NCBI GenBank assembly: GCA_008501735.1
Contig: QQUF01000058.1
Location: 1 to 28,915, forward strand
Length of the DNA stretch: 28,915 nt
Direction of reading: 5' to 3'
From: Calditrichota bacterium
Lineage (GTDB): Bacteria > CLD3
Below the pieces are notes generated by a model. It was not told the origin of the DNA. It did no database searches and saw only the letters and a list, made by a program, of their open reading frames with translations. The translations under genes and the position numbers were made by a program. Positions 1,110-15,910 of the stretch are shown one piece after another; within the stretch, counting starts at the first letter, position 1; each line of letters starts with the position of its first letter.

Positions 1110-1867
1110 AAATTTGTACTTGGAATGTAAACGGAATTCGTGCTGTCTCTAAAAAAGGATTTGGCGAATGGCTTACCGAAACTCAGCCTGAAATTGTGTG
1201 CCTTCAAGAGACTAAAATTAATGAAGAATTTCAAACTGAATTACTTGCCGAACTTGGTTACCATCACTTTTGGAATTTTGCAGAAAAGAAAGGTTACAGC
1301 GGTGTTGCGACTTTCACAAAAACTAAACCTTTAAGCATTTCAAAAGGAATTGGAATTGAAAAATTTGATTTTGAAGGTCGAGTTTTACAAACAGATTTTG
1401 AAAATTATACATTGCTAAACATTTACTTTCCAAGCGGTCAAAGAGACCACGCAAGAGTTCCTTTCAAAATGGAATTTAACGAAGCAGTTTTGGATTTTTG
1501 CAACAAACTTAGAGCAGAAGGAAAACCGCTTGTTGTTTCGGGAGACTACAACATCGCTCACCAAGAACGAGATTTGAAAAACTACAAAGGTAATAAAAAT
1601 ACCTCTGGTTTTTTACCGATTGAACGCGAATGGTTGGACAAGTTTTTTGCCTCTGGCTTTGTTGATACTTTTAGAGAATTTGAACAAGAAACAGGCTTTT
1701 ATTCTTGGTGGAGTTATATGGGGCAATCAAGAGCAAAAAATGTCGGTTGGAGAATTGATTACAATTGTATAACTGAGGATTTAAAACCGAACTTAAAAAA
1801 TGCTTTTATTACTCCACAAGTTTTAGGTTCAGACCATTGTCCAGTGTTTTTAGAATTAGAATTTTAA
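1106..1867 (+). CDS. xth: exodeoxyribonuclease III / AP endonuclease
   Basis: This 253-residue protein belongs to the exonuclease III branch of the endonuclease/exonuclease/phosphatase fold and repairs abasic sites and 3'-blocked ends. The active-site residues are all in place: N7 in WNVNG, E35 in LQETK, Y107 in NIYFPSGQ, D147 and N149 in SGDYNIAH, and the D242-H243 pair in LGSDHCPV near the C terminus. The Trp-rich segment around 200-215 (FYSWWSYM) and GWRIDY fit the family. The start overlaps the coaD stop (ATGA), so it is part of the rsmD-coaD-xth-dapD unit. Nothing is missing or unusual. Confidence 0.94.
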   Translation: MKICTWNVNGIRAVSKKGFGEWLTETQPEIVCLQETKINEEFQTELLAELGYHHFWNFAEKKGYSGVATFTKTKPLSISKGIGIEKFDFEGRVLQTDFENYTLLNIYFPSGQRDHARVPFKMEFNEAVLDFCNKLRAEGKPLVVSGDYNIAHQERDLKNYKGNKNTSGFLPIEREWLDKFFASGFVDTFREFEQETGFYSWWSYMGQSRAKNVGWRIDYNCITEDLKPNLKNAFITPQVLGSDHCPVFLELEF

Positions 1868-1876
1868 GGATAAAAA

Positions 1877-2704
1877 ATGTTACAACAAAAAATAGAAGAA
1901 CTTTACAACTTACCTGCTTCTGAACTTAACGATGAAGCACGAATAATTTTTGAAGAATTTAAAGCAAAAGTCAACTCGGGTGAAATTCGTGCAGCCGAAA
2001 AAATTGGCGATTCTTGGCAAGTCAACCTTTGGGTGAAAAAAGGAATATTAATTGGGTTCAGACTCGGAAAATTAGTTGACCTTTCAATTAATGAAAACTT
2101 CAGATTCATTGACAAGGACACTTTCCCACTTAAGAAAATCACTCTCAAAGACAAAATTAGACAAGTTCCTGGAGGTTCTTCGATTCGTGACGGAGCTTTT
2201 GTTGGTCAAAGTGTAACTTTAATGCCACCAATGTACATAAATGTTGGAGCTTACGTTGACGAAGGAACAATGATTGATTCTCATGCACTCGTTGGTTCTT
2301 GTGCCCAAATCGGAAAGCGAGTTCACGTTTCTGCTGCAGCACAAATCGGTGGAGTTCTTGAGCCAATCGGAGCAATGCCTGTAATTATTGAAGACGATGT
2401 TTTTGTTGGTGGAAACACTGGAATTTATGAAGGAGCAATTGTTAAAAGTCGTGCAGTAATTGCTTCGGGAGTAATTCTTACAGGTTCAACAAAAGTTTAC
2501 GACCTTGTGAACGGAACTGTAATTTCTGCATCTAAAGAATCACCTTTAGTCATTCCTGAAAATGCGGTTGTTGTTTCGGGAAGTCGTCCTGCTTCAAGCA
2601 AATTTGCAAAAGAAAATGGAATCCAAATTTACACTCCTGTAATCATAAAATACAGAGATGACAAGACTGACGCTTCAACTGTTTTGGAAGATTCTTTGAG
2701 GTAA
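1877..2704 (+). CDS. dapD: tetrahydrodipicolinate N-succinyltransferase DapD
   Basis: This 275-residue enzyme transfers succinyl from succinyl-CoA to tetrahydrodipicolinate in the lysine and diaminopimelate pathway, so it also feeds peptidoglycan synthesis. The N-terminal helical domain covers about residues 1-90. Residues 100-210 carry the hexapeptide repeats of a left-handed beta helix ([36 protein letters not shown]). The conserved stretch [19 protein letters not shown] is the acyl-acceptor binding region. An AAGGA ribosome site sits just upstream of the ATG, nine bases after the xth stop, so it likely shares that transcript. A 28-base palindrome follows the gene. Other dap genes are not in the window. 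Confidence 0.95.
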
Positions 2705-8086: not shown

Positions 8087-8119
8087 GTTTTGAGGTAAAT
8101 TTTTAATTTGCCTCAAAAC
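8087..8119 (+). terminator. stem-loop between convergent kbl and plsC
   Basis: gttttgaggtaaat (8087-8100) pairs with atttgcctcaaaac (8106-8119) across a five-base loop, with one G-U pair in 14. It lies 17 bases after the kbl stop and is followed by tttatta, so it probably ends kbl and may end the converging plsC transcript too. Confidence 0.7.
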
Positions 8120-8144
8120 TTTATTAGTCATTATTCATTAATAA

Positions 8145-8915
8145 TTAATCATTAGAAACAGTTGCTGTAAAATTCTCATTCACACCTTCCCAAAGTTTTT
8201 GAGCCAAAACTTTCCTATCTGAATTTTGCACTTTCTCATTACCAAAAACAATCTTTGCTTCAAATTTTGAAAGTTTACAAAGCTCGAAAAAATGCTTTGT
8301 AAAAGGCGAATCCTCTTGCCACCAACAAACTGAAAGGTAAGCAGGAGTTTCATTCGGTTTTGTTTTATACTGAATGCTTGCGTGAGTAACAGGAATTCCC
8401 TCGTTTGCAGGAAGTTGTAAAAGCGAAGGATTGAACTTCAAAACTTCCGCTCCTTTCGTACTCTTTCCTTCAGGGAAAAATATGATTCCGTGATTTTCAT
8501 TGATGTTTTCAGCAATCTCTTTGTTGACTCTCGGAATGTCTCTTTTATTAGTTCTGTCAATGTAAAGTGTGTTCGCAATTTTTGTTAGTTTGCCCATAAG
8601 GGGCCAAGAACTAATTTCTTGCTTTGCCACAAAAACAACATCAATTTTTGTAAAAAACAAAATTATGTCAACGTAACCCAAGTGATTTGAAACCAAAAAG
8701 AATGGCGGTTTTGGAACACTACCTTCGACAATGACTTTCATTCCAATTATTTTTGCCATCAAAACTGCCCAAATGCGAATGAATTTGTTCCTAAGTTTTA
8801 CGGAAAAATTTGAATGTAAAAATGAAATTAGAGAAGCGAAAATGAGAAAAATGAACAACGAAAGGGTTGTAAAAATTGATAAGGTAATTTTTATGTAAGC
8901 TCTTAAAGTAATCAT
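8145..8915 (-). CDS. plsC: 1-acyl-sn-glycerol-3-phosphate acyltransferase (PlsC family)
   Basis: This 256-residue membrane enzyme acylates lysophosphatidic acid to phosphatidic acid. A hydrophobic N-terminal segment at about 9-33 anchors it. The catalytic HX4D motif is H78-D83 (NHLGYVD), the substrate-binding motif is FPEGKSTKG at 147-155, and the QEISSWPLMGKL segment at 99-110 is the usual second block. The third motif has K151 where FPEGTRS has Thr, a tolerated change. There is no good ribosome site before the ATG at 8915. It follows the Rieske-glutamate synthase gene on the same strand, but 205 bases and a terminator-like element separate them. Other lysophospholipid acceptors are possible. 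Confidence 0.85.
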   Translation of the reverse strand: MITLRAYIKITLSIFTTLSLFIFLIFASLISFLHSNFSVKLRNKFIRIWAVLMAKIIGMKVIVEGSVPKPPFFLVSNHLGYVDIILFFTKIDVVFVAKQEISSWPLMGKLTKIANTLYIDRTNKRDIPRVNKEIAENINENHGIIFFPEGKSTKGAEVLKFNPSLLQLPANEGIPVTHASIQYKTKPNETPAYLSVCWWQEDSPFTKHFFELCKLSKFEAKIVFGNEKVQNSDRKVLAQKLWEGVNENFTATVSND

Positions 8916-8997: not shown

Positions 8998-9038
8998 CAA
9001 AAAGAAAACGGCTAATCGAGGGGGAAAATTAGCCGTTT
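8998..9038 (-). terminator. terminator-like stem of repeat copy 1
   Basis: On the minus strand an 11-base-pair stem with an 11-base C-rich loop runs into TTTTCTTTTTG, about 80 bases past the stop at 9121. It probably ends transcription of the Rieske-glutamate synthase gene. Confidence 0.7.
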
Positions 9039-9111
9039 AAAATTGAGACGGGAAATCTCAGGTCAGTGGAAACTACGTAACCCAAATGACAACTGTATGT
9101 CATTCCCTAAA
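9005..9111 (-). repeat. structured repeat element, copy 1 (after the Rieske-glutamate synthase gene)
   Basis: This element of about 107 bases has a close second copy at 10849-10960, about nine in ten bases the same with several one-base gaps. Read on the minus strand it starts about ten bases after the stop of the upstream gene and contains a tgaca/tgtca hairpin, a middle stem, a tgaga/tctca hairpin, and an 11-base-pair stem aaacggctaat/attagccgttt (9006-9016 and 9028-9038) followed by TCTTTTTG. The differences between copies fall mostly in loops or keep pairing possible on the minus strand. It could be a 3'-UTR element, a leader of the next gene, or a small mobile repeat. I do not recognise it as a named RNA family. 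Confidence 0.75.
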
Positions 9112-9120
9112 AATTATTTT

Positions 9121-10743
9121 CTAAAAATTCATTCCACCGTAACTAATTCCTGCCAAATGAGCCATTTCACGATTAAAAGTCGTTAAGTCATCTTGACAAA
9201 ATCCACTCAAATTCTTATGTCCACAAGCTCTTGCCATTACTTTCATCAAATGAGTTGAGGCTTCAAAGTAATTTTTGAGTTGTTTTGCAGAATCTTCAAT
9301 TATTAATCTTGAACGTAAATCTTTTTTCTGAGTGGCAATTCCAACAGGACAATTATTTGTGTGACAAGCTCGCATTCCAAGACAACCAATTGCTTGTAAA
9401 GCAGAATTTGAAACAGCAATTCCGTCAGCTCCAAGTGCCATTGCTTTGATAAAATCAGATTCTGTTCTAAGCCCGCCTGTGATAATTAATGTAACATTTT
9501 TTGCACCGCGTTTGTCCAAGTGTTTCCTTGCTCTTGCCAAAGCAGGAATTGTTGGAACTGAAATATTTTGTTTGAAAACTTCAGGAGCTGCACCTGTTCC
9601 TCCTCCTCTTCCGTCTAAAATTATGTAATCAACTCCAACTTCAAGTGCAAAATCAATGTCTTTTTCAATGTGTTGTGCAGAAAGTTTGAAACCTATTGGA
9701 ATTCCGCCAGTTGCTTCACGAACTTCTTCGGCAACTTTTCTGTAGTCAGCAGGTGAGTCTAAGTCAGAAAATTTTGATGGACTAATCGCAGCTTCACCTT
9801 CATTCAAACCACGAACTTTTGCAATTTTTCCAACAACTTTTTCACCCGGTAAATGTCCACCTGTTCCTGTTTTTGCTCCTTGTCCTGCTTTGAAGTGAAA
9901 CGCTTGACAAACTTTTACTTTTTCAATATCCCAACCAAATTTCCCAGAAGCAAGTTCGTAAAAATAATTTGAGTTTGCTTCTTGTTCTTCGGGCAACATT
10001 CCGCCTTCTCCTGAACAAATTCCTGTTCCAGCCATTTCAGCACCTTTGGAAAGAGCAACTTTTGCCTCTTCGCTCAAAGCACCAAAACTCATATCGCTCA
10101 CAAAAATCGGGATTTTCAAATGCATTGGCTTTTTAGCATTTTTGCCAATCACTAACCCTGTTCCAACTTCGTCGTCGTCCATCAAAGGCTTTTTCCAAAG
10201 TTGTCCTGTAAGAAGCTGAATGTCGTCCCATTTTGGAAGTTCGGTAATTGCAACTCCCATTGCAGAAACCATTCCGTGATGCCCAATTCCCTCTTTTCCT
10301 TTTTTTGCAAGTGCTTGAATGTAAGAATTTTTGCTTTCTTCAGGAGTTCCGTGAGTATCTGCATAAAGTCCTAAGTATTCTTCGCGATTGTAAGGTTGTG
10401 GAAATTCTGCTTCCCACTCACTGATTTCTTCTTCGTCAACGTAAACTGCATCTTCTGCTTCTTCAACCCAAGCTGAAAATTTTGGCAAAATTTCTTCGTT
10501 GTTATAAGCACTAACTCCTGTTTCCAATCTGTAATCCCAATTGTGAACTCCACAGACCAAATCTTCACCTACAACTTTTCCGTCTGACATTAATGCTCCT
10601 CTGTGCAAACATCTTCCGTAAAAAACAGAAACTTTGTCGTCGAATCTTACAACAACAAGGTCAACATTCGCAACTAAAGCGTAAGTTGGTTTTCGGTCTT
10701 CAAGTTGACTCCAAGTTGCAACTTTACTTTTTTTAGCAGTCAT
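9121..10743 (-). CDS. Rieske [2Fe-2S] domain fused to an FMN glutamate synthase-like domain
   Basis: This 540-residue protein joins two redox parts. Residues 8-105 are a Rieske domain with cluster ligands C45-L-H47 and C64-G-V-H67. Residues about 190-530 match the FMN/alpha-ketoglutarate domain of glutamate synthase: the phosphate-binding ILDGRGGGTGAAP at 375-387, ITGGLRTESDF at 421-431, and the [3Fe-4S] cysteines C454, C460 and C465 in the CX5CX4C spacing. The glutaminase domain and the GltD-like subunit are absent here. The Rieske cluster may feed electrons to the FMN in place of GltD; this is inference. The ATG has GGAG nine bases upstream. The true substrate is uncertain; related single-domain proteins are often only named glutamate synthase-related. 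Confidence 0.85.
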   Translation of the reverse strand: MTAKKSKVATWSQLEDRKPTYALVANVDLVVVRFDDKVSVFYGRCLHRGALMSDGKVVGEDLVCGVHNWDYRLETGVSAYNNEEILPKFSAWVEEAEDAVYVDEEEISEWEAEFPQPYNREEYLGLYADTHGTPEESKNSYIQALAKKGKEGIGHHGMVSAMGVAITELPKWDDIQLLTGQLWKKPLMDDDEVGTGLVIGKNAKKPMHLKIPIFVSDMSFGALSEEAKVALSKGAEMAGTGICSGEGGMLPEEQEANSNYFYELASGKFGWDIEKVKVCQAFHFKAGQGAKTGTGGHLPGEKVVGKIAKVRGLNEGEAAISPSKFSDLDSPADYRKVAEEVREATGGIPIGFKLSAQHIEKDIDFALEVGVDYIILDGRGGGTGAAPEVFKQNISVPTIPALARARKHLDKRGAKNVTLIITGGLRTESDFIKAMALGADGIAVSNSALQAIGCLGMRACHTNNCPVGIATQKKDLRSRLIIEDSAKQLKNYFEASTHLMKVMARACGHKNLSGFCQDDLTTFNREMAHLAGISYGGMNF

Positions 10744-10840
10744 ATTTTTCTCCGTTGTAAATATTTTAAAATAAAAATTTGTTTGAATTTTTCAAGATTT
10801 TAGAACAAGTAGGAAACTAAAGTATTCCTATCAATTTGGA

Positions 10841-10882
10841 TAAATAAAAAACGGCTAATTGAGGGGGAAAAATTAGCCGTTT
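10841..10882 (-). terminator. terminator-like stem of repeat copy 2
   Basis: The stem aaacggctaat (10849-10859) with attagccgttt (10872-10882) is followed on the minus strand by TTTATTTA, directly extending the three Ts of the arm. It probably ends the protease transcript, or acts as an attenuator before the Rieske-glutamate synthase gene. Confidence 0.7.
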
Positions 10883-10960
10883 AAAATTTGAGACGGGAAA
10901 ATCTCAGGTCAGTAGCAAACTACAAAACCTGAGTGACAACTGTATGTCATTCCACTAAAA
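10849..10960 (-). repeat. structured repeat element, copy 2 (after the S8 protease gene)
   Basis: This is the second copy of the element at 9005-9111. On the minus strand it again begins about a dozen bases after a stop codon, here that of the protease at 10973, and ends 105 bases before the start of the next gene. Its middle stem is perfect: CTCAGGT pairs with ACCTGAG around an inner GTAG/CTAC hairpin. Copy 1 keeps the outer stem on the minus strand only by three G-U pairs. The bases TGAG are also used by the neighbouring tgaga/tctca hairpin, so the two folds exclude each other. Confidence 0.75.
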
Positions 10961-10972
10961 CTTTTTTAAAAT

Positions 10973-13900
10973 TTATTTCAAAAATGTCATTTTCTTAATT
11001 TCTGAGAACCCACTTGCAGTTTCAAGTTTGTAAAAATAAATTCCACTTGAGACTGATTTCCCTAAGTCATCTGTTCCGTTCCAAACAACTGAGTTGAAAC
11101 CAAAATTACCTTTTGAGTCAAACAATGTTTTTACAAGTTGTCCTTTAACATTGTAAACAAAGATTTTTAATGACTCCTCTTGTGGAAGTGTAAAAGTAAT
11201 TTTTGTGCTTGGGTTAAACGGATTCGGATAGTTTTGAGCTAAAGAATAAGAAATCGGGGCAGTTAAATCCAATTCACGAATATCAGTCAAAGTTCCCCAC
11301 CAATTATAAACATTTCCAAGAAAAGTATCTAAAGTCGAAAGACTTGGGTTTCCATTTAGGTCATAAATTCCAGAAGCTTCAAATCCTGTAAGAACAACAG
11401 ACCAATTATTTCCTGTGTTTGCGACAACCGCAGGAGCAAAGTTTCCTGTTACTCCGTAACTTATTACTGCTTCTCCTCCAGCAAGAGTGAATCCATCTTT
11501 ATTTGATTGAGTCGGAACAGAAACGTTGTAAAGTTTTGTATCGCCTACAGGGTGAGTTGTCCCTTTTACAAAAGAATTTGTAGTTCCAATTGGATCTATT
11601 AAAGCACCAACGAAATTGTTTCCGAAGTTTAGCCCACTTACACTATTTCCAACAGAAGTTCCACTAAGTAAAATGTTTCCACCTTGATTCAAGAAACTTT
11701 CCAATGCCGTCAAGTTATCAGTTGTTAAAACATCAGTATTTTGTTGGTAACCTGTAAACCAAATTACATTTCTATTAAAAAGTGAGTTTAAAGTATCAGC
11801 AGAAATTTCACCGAATTCTTCGACATCCCAAATAAAGTATCTTAGTCCAAGATTATCTAAAGCAGTAATGTAAATTGATTCTAAATTGTCGCCACCGTCA
11901 TCGTCAACCAAAATCAAATCTGTTCTTGGGACTTCGTAAGTTTCCTGTGTGTTTCCACCAGCAGTTACTGTAATTATGTCCTCAAAAGTTTTTTCAGAAT
12001 AATTAAAAGGAGGCTTAACAGTTGTAGAAACGTATTCCAAGTAACCTGTTTGAGACATTGGGATTGAAGGGAAAGCAAAATTACCATTTGCATCAGTAGT
12101 AGTTTCGATTGACATTTCTTCATCAAAGACATAAATATTTACTTCTAAAGATGCTTCAACAGGACTTTGGTCAACTTCATCTGTAACTGTTCCGACAAAA
12201 CTTCCCATTTGCGAAGCCACAAGAGTTGTATCAAAATCTAAAGTATCTAAAGTTGTCATAAAAACGTCTTTAGTCAAAAAGTCGAAACCATACTTGTAAA
12301 AAGTAACAGTTTGAATCGTATCAGCAGGAACTCTTACTTGGTAAAAACCTGTGGAATCTGTATGAGCAAGAGTTGAAGGGCTTTTGACACTTGCATTTGG
12401 AATAATGTTTCCGTTTGCGTCTGTCAAATAACCTTGCATAATCGGTTGAGCAACAGCAGAAACTGCTTCGTAAGCGTCAACCATTCCAGCTCCGTAACGA
12501 GGATCTTTTCCTGGAGCTCCTAAATCAACAGAAGTCAGTTGCATAAATTTTGAAATATCAGCAGGTGTCAAAGTTGGACTTGCGGAAAGCATTAAAGCAC
12601 AAACTCCAGCTAAGTGAGGTGTTGCACTCGAAGTTCCACCAAAAGAACCATAACCTCCTCCAGGAAGAGTCGATTGAGTACTTGCTCCTGGAGATGAAAC
12701 ATCAGGTTTGAGAAGTCCGATCGCTCCTGTTTGAGTTTCGTATGGATAATCGTGATAATTTGAAGGAAGTGTGTAAGGATAGCCTGGATGATTTGCTTGA
12801 ATATCTTCCCAAGCAGCAGGTCCGTGAGGTGAAGAACTTTCAATGATTCCAGTGTTCACGTTAATATTTCCTGAACCAATTACTGAGCTAAGTCCACCAA
12901 CTAAAGTTTGGTCAGGATGAATCCAAGGTGGAGGAGAATTTCCAGGTGCAGAAATATTGTAAGGAATTGGCTCATTTCCAGTGTTATTTCCATTATTACT
13001 TGTTGAATTTGTGTGAATAATTCCAAGTGCTAATTCCATATCTGTGTTTTGTCGGAACATTGCATAGTCAGGAGAGCTGCCATTAAACTTATAACTGTAA
13101 GAGCTTGTAATTACGTCAGCATCTTTATCCATTGCATATTGTTGAGCTTCCCAAAAAGAAGTTTGTCCACCAGTTACTTGTAAAATCATACAATTTGCTT
13201 GTGGTGCAACTCCAGTAATTGTTCCGTTTGCTCCATTTCCACAAACTTGTCCAGCTGTTGAAGTACCGTGACTACTAGAGCCTTGTGGGTCATTGTTGTT
13301 ATTTCCCATATTCCAACCAACTAAGTCATCTGTGTAACCATTATTATCATCATCAACTCCGTTTAAATCACCTGGATCGAAACTCCAAACTCCACCAATA
13401 AGTTCCATTGTTACTCCGTCACCATCAGCATCTTCACCAAGATTGTTCCAAATATTTGGTCCTAAATCTGGGTGTTCATAGTCTGTTCCACTGTCAAGAT
13501 TTGCAACAACAACTCCAGCTCCGTGATAGCCTAAATCTTCCCAAACTTCGTGAGCACGAATCATAATTAAACCAGGATTTGTGTCGTTAAAAGTTGGGTT
13601 AAGTGTAAAAATATTCTTTGGGATTGGATCAGGTTTGAAGTCAGTTAATTCTTCTTCAATGTATGTTTTATCGAATGAGATTCTTCCAATTTTGTCAAAA
13701 TTTGCGAGTTCTAAAATCACATCTTTTGTCGCACTAAAAGCCACAACGTTGTTTGTCCAAAGTGAAACGAGCTTTGAAACGCTTCCAAGTTCTTTATTAC
13801 GTTCCAAAAAGCTAAGGATTTCCCTTTGCTCATTTTTAGCGAATTCTTTAAGAGTTCTTTTGATAAAAGGTCTTTTTTCAAATTTATTTAAATTTTGAAG

Positions 13901-14104
13901 CCCTTCTCTCTCAAGCATTTCCATTAAATCAGTGTAAGTGATTCTGTCATCAAGAACAACGTAAGCATTGACTAACTCATTTGAGCCAACTCTTTCAAGT
14001 TCGTCGCTCAAAGGCTTGTCAATCTTAGCTGTAGCAAATGCATTTGAAAAAATCATTGCAGTTGAAGAAGCTAAGACAAGACTTAGTAGCTTTTTAGTAT
14101 TCAT
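10973..14104 (-). CDS. secreted subtilisin-like (S8) serine protease with type IX secretion tail
   Basis: This 1043-residue protein begins with a signal peptide (KKLLSLVLASSTAMIFS, cleavage near NAFA at 21-24). A propeptide-like region follows to about 170. The S8 catalytic domain (about 180-550) has D204 in NLDSGTDYEHPD, H279 in SSSHGTSTAG and S492 in GGTSSATPHLAG. A Ca-binding-like DADGDG (225-230) and Asp-rich DDDNNGYTDD lie between them. Then come two carboxypeptidase-regulatory-like domains (about 555-720), a flavodoxin-like or GATase-like region (about 730-940), and a C-terminal sorting domain with NYPNPFNPSTKI and a FlgD-like fold. The tail marks export by the type IX system to the cell surface. 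The ATG has a strong GGAGGA site. No immunity or partner gene is near. Confidence 0.9.
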   Translation of the reverse strand: MNTKKLLSLVLASSTAMIFSNAFATAKIDKPLSDELERVGSNELVNAYVVLDDRITYTDLMEMLEREGLQNLNKFEKRPFIKRTLKEFAKNEQREILSFLERNKELGSVSKLVSLWTNNVVAFSATKDVILELANFDKIGRISFDKTYIEEELTDFKPDPIPKNIFTLNPTFNDTNPGLIMIRAHEVWEDLGYHGAGVVVANLDSGTDYEHPDLGPNIWNNLGEDADGDGVTMELIGGVWSFDPGDLNGVDDDNNGYTDDLVGWNMGNNNNDPQGSSSHGTSTAGQVCGNGANGTITGVAPQANCMILQVTGGQTSFWEAQQYAMDKDADVITSSYSYKFNGSSPDYAMFRQNTDMELALGIIHTNSTSNNGNNTGNEPIPYNISAPGNSPPPWIHPDQTLVGGLSSVIGSGNINVNTGIIESSSPHGPAAWEDIQANHPGYPYTLPSNYHDYPYETQTGAIGLLKPDVSSPGASTQSTLPGGGYGSFGGTSSATPHLAGVCALMLSASPTLTPADISKFMQLTSVDLGAPGKDPRYGAGMVDAYEAVSAVAQPIMQGYLTDANGNIIPNASVKSPSTLAHTDSTGFYQVRVPADTIQTVTFYKYGFDFLTKDVFMTTLDTLDFDTTLVASQMGSFVGTVTDEVDQSPVEASLEVNIYVFDEEMSIETTTDANGNFAFPSIPMSQTGYLEYVSTTVKPPFNYSEKTFEDIITVTAGGNTQETYEVPRTDLILVDDDGGDNLESIYITALDNLGLRYFIWDVEEFGEISADTLNSLFNRNVIWFTGYQQNTDVLTTDNLTALESFLNQGGNILLSGTSVGNSVSGLNFGNNFVGALIDPIGTTNSFVKGTTHPVGDTKLYNVSVPTQSNKDGFTLAGGEAVISYGVTGNFAPAVVANTGNNWSVVLTGFEASGIYDLNGNPSLSTLDTFLGNVYNWWGTLTDIRELDLTAPISYSLAQNYPNPFNPSTKITFTLPQEESLKIFVYNVKGQLVKTLFDSKGNFGFNSVVWNGTDDLGKSVSSGIYFYKLETASGFSEIKKMTFLK

Positions 14105-14196: not shown

Positions 14197-15831
14197 TTAA
14201 ACCTTCCAAATTCCTCTTAATTTCTCGATTGCGATTTTGAAATTTTCAGGTCTTGAAGGGTCGTAAACTAAATTCTCGTCAAAGACTTCCACAAAATTCT
14301 GATTCCCGTCATTTGTAATCGCTAAGCTGTAAAATTTTGTGCCTTTGACTTGCTGTTCTTTTATTTTCTCTTCTGTCTTTTTTGGCAGATTTGGTAGAAT
14401 AAAATCGGACACAAAAAGCACATCTGAGTATTCGTAATTCTTTTCTTGCAAAACTCTAATCGTGTGTAAAAGTGCAGGAATTGCATCTGTTCCGCCATAA
14501 AATCCCATTTTCAAAAATTGTAATAATTTTGGTATAGAAGTGTCAATATCGGAAAGTTCTAACGTCTCAATTTGTGTAGAAAATGAAACCAAGTAACACT
14601 TCCGTTTCTCATTCATAATTTTGGATAACAAGCCGAAGACGATTGTTTTTGCAATTTTTTCAGGAAGTCCATTCATCGAAGCACTCGTGTCAATACAAAC
14701 AATCAGCGGACCTTTCTCTGCCTCGGTTTTCTTTGTCATTTTGGTTTTTGATGAATTCCCTGCTCCACCCAAATATTCATCTCGAAATTTGAAAGTCAAA
14801 AGTTTCTTCTCTACAAAGTCTTTAGCAAACAGAATCGCAGTTTCTTCTGAACTCAAAAGTGCAACTTGGGAAGGCAAAACATTGCTCAAATCATCGCTAA
14901 AATGAACTCCAATAATTTCGGACTTTGAAGCCGAAGTTGCTCGCCAATCAAAACTTTGTTCTGAACTAAGCATCACATTTTCTTCGTATTCTTTCTCTAC
15001 TTCGCGATATTTTCCAAGTAAGTCTAAAAGTTCTTGAAGTTCTTTTTTGTTTTCCAAAATTTCTGCATATTTTTCAAATTCGTCCCAATCTAATCCTTGC
15101 CAAACTCCTTGAGACAAATCCCAAAACCTTCCCAAATCTTTGAAAAAAGGAGACAGGATTTCAAAAATTTGCTTGAGTCTTTGAAACTTAGAATCGTGTT
15201 CTTGGCTCAATTTCTTAAGTTCATTTTGAAGTCTTTCCCACTCTTGTTCCAACATTTTTTGTTCTAAAGAATTTTTCCATTCTTCAACCAATTTTTCCAA
15301 GTGAATGAAAAGTTCTTTTCGAGATTTTTCATTAAGTTTTTGGCTCGAAAGTTCCAAAAGTTTGTTGAAATAAAATTCCCAATCTTGGTCTTGTTTCGGA
15401 TAAGTTTTTCTCAAAAACTTTAGTAAATCAAACCAAGAATCAACTTCAAAAACTTTTTCTTTTACAAAATTTTCATACTTCTGAATGCTTTCATTCTCGT
15501 CAGCAAAGTTGTCATCTACAAAATGAAGTTGACGAAAAGTTTCGTTACACCATTCAAGAACTTCTTTTGTAAGCCAAGTTGAAAGACTTGCATTGTTTTG
15601 AGAGTAACTTTTGAACTGACTTCTGCTCAAAAATAAATTTACAACTTCAATCCAATTTGCAAATTCTGTCTGAACTCTTGACAACTTAGCTTCTTCTAAG
15701 AAATTGAATTTTTGCTTGTAAAAATGATTAAAAACCAACTCTGAAAGTTCAATCCGACAAGGTTCGTTCATAAAATTCCCGAACTTTACTAACCCGTCAA
15801 ACTGATTTCTTAAATGACTTGAACGAAACAT
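14197..15831 (-). CDS. viaA: VWA-domain protein, ViaA homologue
   Basis: This 544-residue protein has a long helical N-terminal part (1-360), with a charged coiled-coil stretch at about 160-285, and a C-terminal von Willebrand A domain (about 370-544). The MIDAS metal site is complete: D381-T-S383-A-S385, T448 in YGGTDA and D476 in FVSDF. It is the typical partner of the MoxR-type ATPase encoded upstream; in E. coli RavA-ViaA associates with membranes and with respiratory Fe-S enzymes and affects aminoglycoside sensitivity. It follows ravA on the same strand after 203 bases that hold repeats. E. coli ViaA is somewhat shorter. No Shine-Dalgarno site is visible before the ATG. Confidence 0.78.
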   Translation of the reverse strand: MFRSSHLRNQFDGLVKFGNFMNEPCRIELSELVFNHFYKQKFNFLEEAKLSRVQTEFANWIEVVNLFLSRSQFKSYSQNNASLSTWLTKEVLEWCNETFRQLHFVDDNFADENESIQKYENFVKEKVFEVDSWFDLLKFLRKTYPKQDQDWEFYFNKLLELSSQKLNEKSRKELFIHLEKLVEEWKNSLEQKMLEQEWERLQNELKKLSQEHDSKFQRLKQIFEILSPFFKDLGRFWDLSQGVWQGLDWDEFEKYAEILENKKELQELLDLLGKYREVEKEYEENVMLSSEQSFDWRATSASKSEIIGVHFSDDLSNVLPSQVALLSSEETAILFAKDFVEKKLLTFKFRDEYLGGAGNSSKTKMTKKTEAEKGPLIVCIDTSASMNGLPEKIAKTIVFGLLSKIMNEKRKCYLVSFSTQIETLELSDIDTSIPKLLQFLKMGFYGGTDAIPALLHTIRVLQEKNYEYSDVLFVSDFILPNLPKKTEEKIKEQQVKGTKFYSLAITNDGNQNFVEVFDENLVYDPSRPENFKIAIEKLRGIWKV

Positions 15832-15836
15832 TTTAA

Positions 15837-15871
15837 TGAATAATGATTAATGAATAATTACTAATATTTTT
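15837..15871. repeat. A/T-rich repeat resembling 8121-8156
   Basis: The stretch upstream of the viaA start is built from attaatg/aataatg words. Its reverse complement resembles the sequence after the kbl terminator (attagt followed by attattcattaat), with a handful of mismatches over about 30 bases. It may be a slippage-expanded spacer repeat; low complexity makes chance similarity possible. Confidence 0.3.
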
Positions 15872-15910
15872 TTAGAGGCTTTACCTCTAAAACTAAAATA
15901 AGCAAATTCA

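Follow-up and report, generated by a model that had tools for sequence, protein, structure and literature searches.

A duplicated element with a repair-gene operator, a candidate small-RNA gene in a Calditrichota genome without detectable LexA

The locus and its two repeat copies

The window (the whole stretch of 28,915 nucleotides analysed here, contig QQUF01000058.1 of the Calditrichota bacterium assembly GCA_008501735.1) holds a unit of ~110 nt that is present twice in the 4.1-Mb genome, both times on the minus strand. The two copies align over ~118 nt with a mean column identity of 92% (MAFFT), and their similarity extends from GGAATGACAT (9106 / 10953) through to a T-tail (about 9000 / 10846). 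Thus, the two near-identical copies of the original prediction were recovered with the right positions and orientation, with unit ends that differ slightly from 9005-9111 and 10849-10960. In a whole-genome BLAST search, these two copies were the only matches (E 1e-60 for the self match and 6e-33 for the other copy), and therefore the duplication is not due to chance. The search of the element against 145 genomes matched its own genome only, and none of the 144 others. The features of the locus, together with the neighbouring genes, are as follows.

9087..9102, minus strand: copy 1, palindromic operator TGACATACAGTTGTCA (damage-type box), an exact match to TGACA-N6-TGTCA
9068..9075, minus strand: copy 1, predicted -7-type promoter element TAGTTTCC (TAnnTTTG-like), with TA 12 nt after the box, an offset found in 10 of 13 other box promoters
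9003..9063, minus strand: copy 1, predicted small RNA of about 60-65 nt, from the box-promoter-terminator layout and the fold, its start placed from the promoter element
9044..9060, minus strand: copy 1, hairpin A, TGAGA-TTTCCCG-TCTCA, with a C-rich loop
9005..9038, minus strand: copy 1, intrinsic terminator, stem AAACGGCTAAT / ATTAGCCGTTT, loop TTTCCCCCTCG, T-tail to about 9000
10934..10949, minus strand: copy 2, operator TGACATACAGTTGTCA, identical to that of copy 1
10915..10922, minus strand: copy 2, predicted -7-type promoter element TAGTTTGC
10846..10910, minus strand: copy 2, predicted small RNA of about 65 nt, from the fold, with 5 differences in 67 columns from copy 1
10889..10906, minus strand: copy 2, hairpin A, TGAGA-TTTTCCCG-TCTCA
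10846..10882, minus strand: copy 2, intrinsic terminator, loop TTTCCCCCTC
9121..10743, minus strand: gene for a Rieske and glutamate-synthase-like FMN protein, a neighbour upstream of copy 1 and downstream of copy 2
10973..14104, minus strand: gene for a secreted S8 peptidase with a Por-type sorting tail, upstream of copy 2, a neighbour only
8145-8915: acyltransferase gene, the next gene after copy 1

Both copies lie just past minus-strand stop codons, as had been noted before, with the box beginning 18 nt (copy 1) or 23 nt (copy 2) after the stop, and genome-wide mapping placed no further copies elsewhere. Each copy is closed by a stem of 10-12 bp followed by T's, in agreement with the terminator-like stem and T-rich tail described originally. 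The predicted fold of the minus strand is more stable than that of dinucleotide shuffles (z -3.8 and -6.0 for the two copies), the fold of the plus strand being weaker by the same measure (z -2.2 and -4.3). The comparison with Rfam that had been proposed for the element was carried out, and no family reached its gathering threshold anywhere in the window. As for the neighbours, the glutamate-synthase-like protein has 80 relatives spread over many phyla and is uninformative on the element. The window also contains a 43-nt AT-rich inverted repeat (8115-8157 / 15831-15873), whose arms are 84% complementary, lie 7.7 kb apart and adjoin gene ends.

An operator shared with repair genes

The unit had been suspected to hold more than a plain terminator, and this was confirmed: the conserved block acaactgtatgtcatt belongs to a 16-nt palindrome, TGACATACAGTTGTCA, and the spacer that leads up to the conserved aggtcagt holds a predicted -7-type promoter element. 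A search for the palindrome with one mismatch allowed, in nine genomes of the phylum, found sites upstream of recA and uvrA in a sister genus (G001). The motif TGACA-N6-TGTCA occurs nine times in the genome studied here (G000) and four times in G001, compared to three times in each for the reversed control, and 12 of these 13 sites lie outside ORFs. Among the sites with two mismatches, on the other hand, 28 of the 30 checked are inside ORFs, a contrast with the exact sites that gives a Fisher p of 7e-8.

Both G000 and G001 have the box ahead of recA, uvrA, and uvrB (the uvrB site being found again in G002), and also ahead of a VOC gene, which is followed by tag in G000. The identities of RecA, UvrA, UvrB, and Tag were confirmed with NCBIfam. 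Other box sites precede an outer-membrane-efflux-type gene, a small gene of no named family, and both repeat copies; the box regulon also includes a BNR-repeat protein, and one-mismatch boxes in G001 extend the set to a DinB-family gene, a SocA-type gene, and further genes. Judged from its place in front of recA, uvrA, and uvrB and from its intergenic bias, TGACA-N6-TGTCA is a repair-gene operator carried by both copies, the label "damage-type" being given to the box solely for the identity of the genes downstream of it. Both copies thus have the operator in common with recA and the excision-repair genes, a feature looked for in a member of the damage regulon.

Some of the sites deserve a separate description. 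At L089 1501-1516 (G000:C44:137304-137319), the box is located between divergent genes. A sigma-54-type regulator is encoded to one side of it, and the VOC gene, with the gene for DNA-3-methyladenine glycosylase I (tag) behind it, lies to the other. A gene with a SocA/Panacea domain, possibly a damage-linked toxin-antitoxin part, is preceded at a distance of 54 nt by the one-mismatch box AGACATACTGTTGTCA (L184; G001:C95:4783-4798). Finally, pairs of repair-type boxes ~300 nt apart are found in G005 (L132, 1659-1674 and 1966-1981) and G003 (L142, 1612-1627 and 1921-1936), where each pair encloses a short ORF that looked TfoX-C-like by eye and is followed by a small lipoprotein-like gene, an arrangement conserved in the two genomes.

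A predicted promoter element at a fixed distance from the box

When 13 other box promoters were aligned on the box, T, A, T, and T were observed at positions 12, 13, 16, and 17 in 12, 12, 13, and 12 cases, respectively. TAnnTT is present at offset 12 after the box in 10 of these promoters, and at any other offset in at most three. The element was therefore not picked by eye, but aligned on the promoters of the repair genes, to which the offset of 12 is common. The same element at the same offset appears in copy 1, in copy 2, and in the sister-genus homologue described below, with a chance of about 1-3% each as estimated from shuffles, and the spacing between operator and promoter element in both copies is consequently that of the repair genes. 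TAnnTT at offset 12 fits the Bacteroidetes -7 consensus, TAnnTTTG (PMC7366714), and the box would then lie over the -33/-35 region. The opposite direction of the operator was also considered and rejected, since, by eye, no promoter element was seen at the shared offset, and a transcript in that direction would run antisense into the upstream genes.

The predicted RNA

The RNA predicted from this promoter would start near 9063 in copy 1 and at about 10909 in copy 2, and would end at the terminator after 60-70 nt. Two hairpins make up its predicted fold: hairpin A, in which TGAGA pairs with TCTCA around the loop UUU(U)CCCG, and the terminator hairpin, with a stem of 12 bp and the loop UUUCCCCCUC(G). 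In both copies, UUUCCC occurs once in the loop of hairpin A and once in that of the terminator, so that each copy displays a repeated UCCC-type motif in single-stranded loops, as in small RNAs with C-rich loops. Between the copies, the operator is identical, 7 of 20 columns differ in the promoter spacer, and 5 of 67 differ in the transcript (Fisher p 0.005), the differences in the transcript being mostly single-base changes in the length of T or A runs. The better conservation of the transcript compared to the promoter spacer suggests, from just two sequences compared, that selection acts on the RNA. A short peptide encoded in the transcript was discarded, as no ATG, GTG, or TTG codon was reported in copy 1.

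A homologue in the sister genus

A covariance model was built from the two copies and searched in the nine genomes. The sole non-self match below 0.1 was G001:C227:7796-7919, which is full length and has a modest E-value (E=0.011), and the same site was found independently through its one-mismatch box, GGACACACTGTTGTCA. In this homologue, for which the first hairpin is not predicted, the box lies 28 nt past a stop codon and is followed by TAACTTTA at offset 12, about 70 nt, and a terminator. The stem of the latter ends in AAACGG/CCGTTT, as in the copies, and is located 55 nt after the box, compared to 48 and 51 nt in the copies. Its loops are of the CUCUCU type instead of CCCCC, and no CCC run is present in them. 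MAFFT misaligns the 5' arm of the G001 terminator, and therefore no covariation among the three sequences is claimed. Four further model matches (E 0.73-1.0) were set aside; one of them is the box promoter of a DinB-family gene, and the rest do not have the box-promoter-terminator layout.

The neighbours of the G001 homologue are unlike those of copies 1 and 2, and its next gene is on the opposite strand, in convergent orientation. Because of these two differences, the unit is, as read from this comparison, independent of its neighbours and not a leader.

Interpretation of the element

Each copy is best explained as a free-standing small-RNA gene of a DNA-damage regulon, transcribed from the minus strand, a reading to which a probability of about 0.77 is given. 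Since their promoter signal is common to recA, uvrA, and uvrB, both genes are probably switched on by DNA damage. According to this model, the palindromic operator and the -7-type element would drive the synthesis of a two-hairpin RNA of 60-70 nt, ended by the intrinsic terminator, and DNA damage would raise its transcription. Transcripts of the upstream genes may also stop at the terminator of the unit. An unexplained repeat would in this manner become a candidate small-RNA gene with a link to DNA repair, in genomes without detectable LexA or Hfq from a phylum that has been sampled poorly. To our knowledge, few small RNAs belong directly to a damage regulon.

Among the alternatives, one keeps the small-RNA gene as proposed and assigns its operator to a different, non-damage regulator under whose influence recA, uvrA, and uvrB would also come. 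This is unlikely. In its favour, the regulator is known here as a candidate only, and the regulon also holds the efflux-type gene, the VOC protein, and the BNR-repeat protein; however, recA, uvrA, uvrB, and tag together form the hallmark set of a DNA-damage regulon.

Just as unlikely is a 3'-UTR-derived RNA, in which processing would release the element from the 3' end of the upstream mRNAs, with the palindrome as a stabilising stem. Part of this reading, already contained in the original prediction, stands, as the element starts 18-28 nt past a stop codon in all three copies with no other terminator seen in between, so that its terminator may serve the upstream mRNAs too, and the palindrome is able to fold in RNA. 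What does not fit is the predicted promoter that the unit itself holds: recA, uvrA, and uvrB have this palindrome as their operator, and a promoter element follows it here at the shared spacing. Moreover, the upstream genes are not the same in the two copies, nor in the two genera, and copy 2 and G001 both have mismatches in the outer part of the stem.

The proposal that the unit is a leader for the next gene, where the box would drive the glutamate-synthase-like or the acyltransferase gene and the terminator would function as a conditional attenuator, is quite improbable. A co-directional start codon does lie about 90-105 nt downstream of both copies, and a competing long hairpin overlaps hairpin A in copy 2. 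Nevertheless, the downstream genes of the two copies are unrelated, the sister-genus homologue faces a convergent gene, and the unit is closed by an intrinsic terminator with a strong stem, with no antiterminator conserved in both copies. Lastly, a mobile palindromic repeat (REP/MITE-like), also put forward at first, would agree with a duplicated unit that has several inverted repeats, but it is extremely improbable for an element with two copies in 4.1 Mb instead of many dispersed ones, none by BLAST in the 144 other genomes, an oriented promoter and terminator, and a transcript more conserved than the spacer.

A candidate regulator in the absence of detectable LexA

The damage regulon outlined above does not appear to be an SOS regulon of the LexA-controlled type, as both G000 and G001 are without detectable LexA. 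The LexA model TIGR00498 had no match in either genome, and LexA-length matches to the LexA model were found in G004, G006, and G007. No S24-HTH repressor was found in G000 or G001, where the S24 matches are signal-peptidase-like proteins of 140 aa; without a DNA-binding domain, these were rejected as regulators. An M78/IrrE-type protease was also rejected, since an M78 protein exists in only one of the two genomes, which leaves no shared candidate.

G000 and G001 hold exactly one WYL-domain protein each, with the domains HTH_11, WYL, and WCX, each considered a candidate controller of the LexA-less recA/uvrA/uvrB regulon.

G000:C17:56383-56580 (L226, ORF 1159-2118, minus strand): WYL protein, 319 aa
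G001:C62:17018-17212 (L224, ORF 1165-2118, minus strand): WYL protein

Strong WYL proteins (E 1e-15 or better) are found in G000, G001, G002, G003, G005, and G007. Intergenic box sites occur in G000, G001, G002, G003, and G005, all five with a strong WYL protein. In the genomes with weak WYL matches (G004, G006, and G008), the box sites that were read lie inside ORFs, and G007 holds a strong WYL protein but one box site only. By elimination, by its rough co-occurrence with the box, and by its parallel with PafBC and DriD, this single HTH_11-WYL-WCX protein, and not LexA, is the leading candidate regulator, an assignment that is plausible but still short of even odds.

PafBC and DriD are WYL regulators of LexA-independent damage responses that are activated by single-stranded DNA (PMC11804915, PMC12340889). 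As in mycobacteria (PafBC) and Caulobacter (DriD), a damage regulon without LexA is here accompanied by a WYL protein as the candidate regulator. The sites of DriD are GAC-N7-GTC-like and keep a constant spacing to the -10 element (PMC11804915, PMC12340889), thus resembling GACA-N6-TGTC here, while the PafBC site is not palindromic (PMC6789036). Unlike PafBC and DriD, the candidate described here is a single-chain HTH_11-WYL-WCX protein associated with a -7-type promoter. By analogy, it would sense single-stranded DNA as PafBC and DriD do, and would act at the box. A SOS-type regulon without classical LexA is also reminiscent of the non-canonical LexA of Bacteroidetes, where S24 proteins carrying a CI-type HTH are used together with boxes of the type GGA-N5-TCC or CTAA-N5-TTAG (PMC8565304), but no S24-HTH protein was found in G000 or G001. 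The operator and the candidate WYL protein provide the phylum with a putative repair control which, if true, would extend damage control by the sensing of single-stranded DNA beyond mycobacteria and Caulobacter.

Comparison with known small RNAs and possible mode of action

By its predicted link to the damage response, the small RNA resembles IstR-2 and ChvR. IstR-2 from E. coli is a toxin-gene-linked small RNA of the damage response controlled by LexA through a LexA box (PMC2826370), and ChvR from Caulobacter is a damage-response small RNA under ChvIG, without an SOS box (PMC6237742). Unlike in both of these, the box here is common to recA, uvrA, and uvrB, and yet no LexA was found. The anatomy of the element is closer to that of the LhrC family from Listeria monocytogenes (also RsaE and FsrA), given the near-identical multiple copies, the two stem-loops, and the C-rich motif, next to U's, that is present in loop A and again in the loop of the terminator. 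LhrC is multicopy and stress-induced, and its C-rich UCCC motifs pair with and block Shine-Dalgarno sites (PMC4132741). However, the unit described here is shorter, has no Rfam match, and holds a DNA-damage-type promoter instead of one dependent on LisRK, in a phylum where Hfq was not found. As predicted from these features, it represents a new family of small RNAs within a damage regulon that is LexA-less, with a function like that of IstR-2 and ChvR and an anatomy like that of LhrC.

By analogy with LhrC, the predicted RNA might act in trans and damp translation in a Hfq-independent manner, through base-pairing between the UUUCCC in its loops and purine-rich Shine-Dalgarno sites, a mode of action that is regarded as possible but tentative. 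Hfq (PF17209) had no match in the nine genomes of the phylum, and Bacteroides is likewise without Hfq (PMC7366714). The more complete model, in which a single-chain WYL activator would control a LexA-less damage regulon through TGACA-N6-TGTCA at a fixed distance from TAnnTT, and in which this regulon would include a small RNA with two gene copies that damps translation after damage independently of Hfq, is doubtful as a whole. The perfect complement of the C-rich loop GAGGGGGAAA (10 nt) was found nowhere in the whole genome other than in the small-RNA genes themselves, and therefore any pairing with a target would be shorter or imperfect. SD-like motifs are present before 10 of the 22 genes of the window, compared to 3.5 expected.
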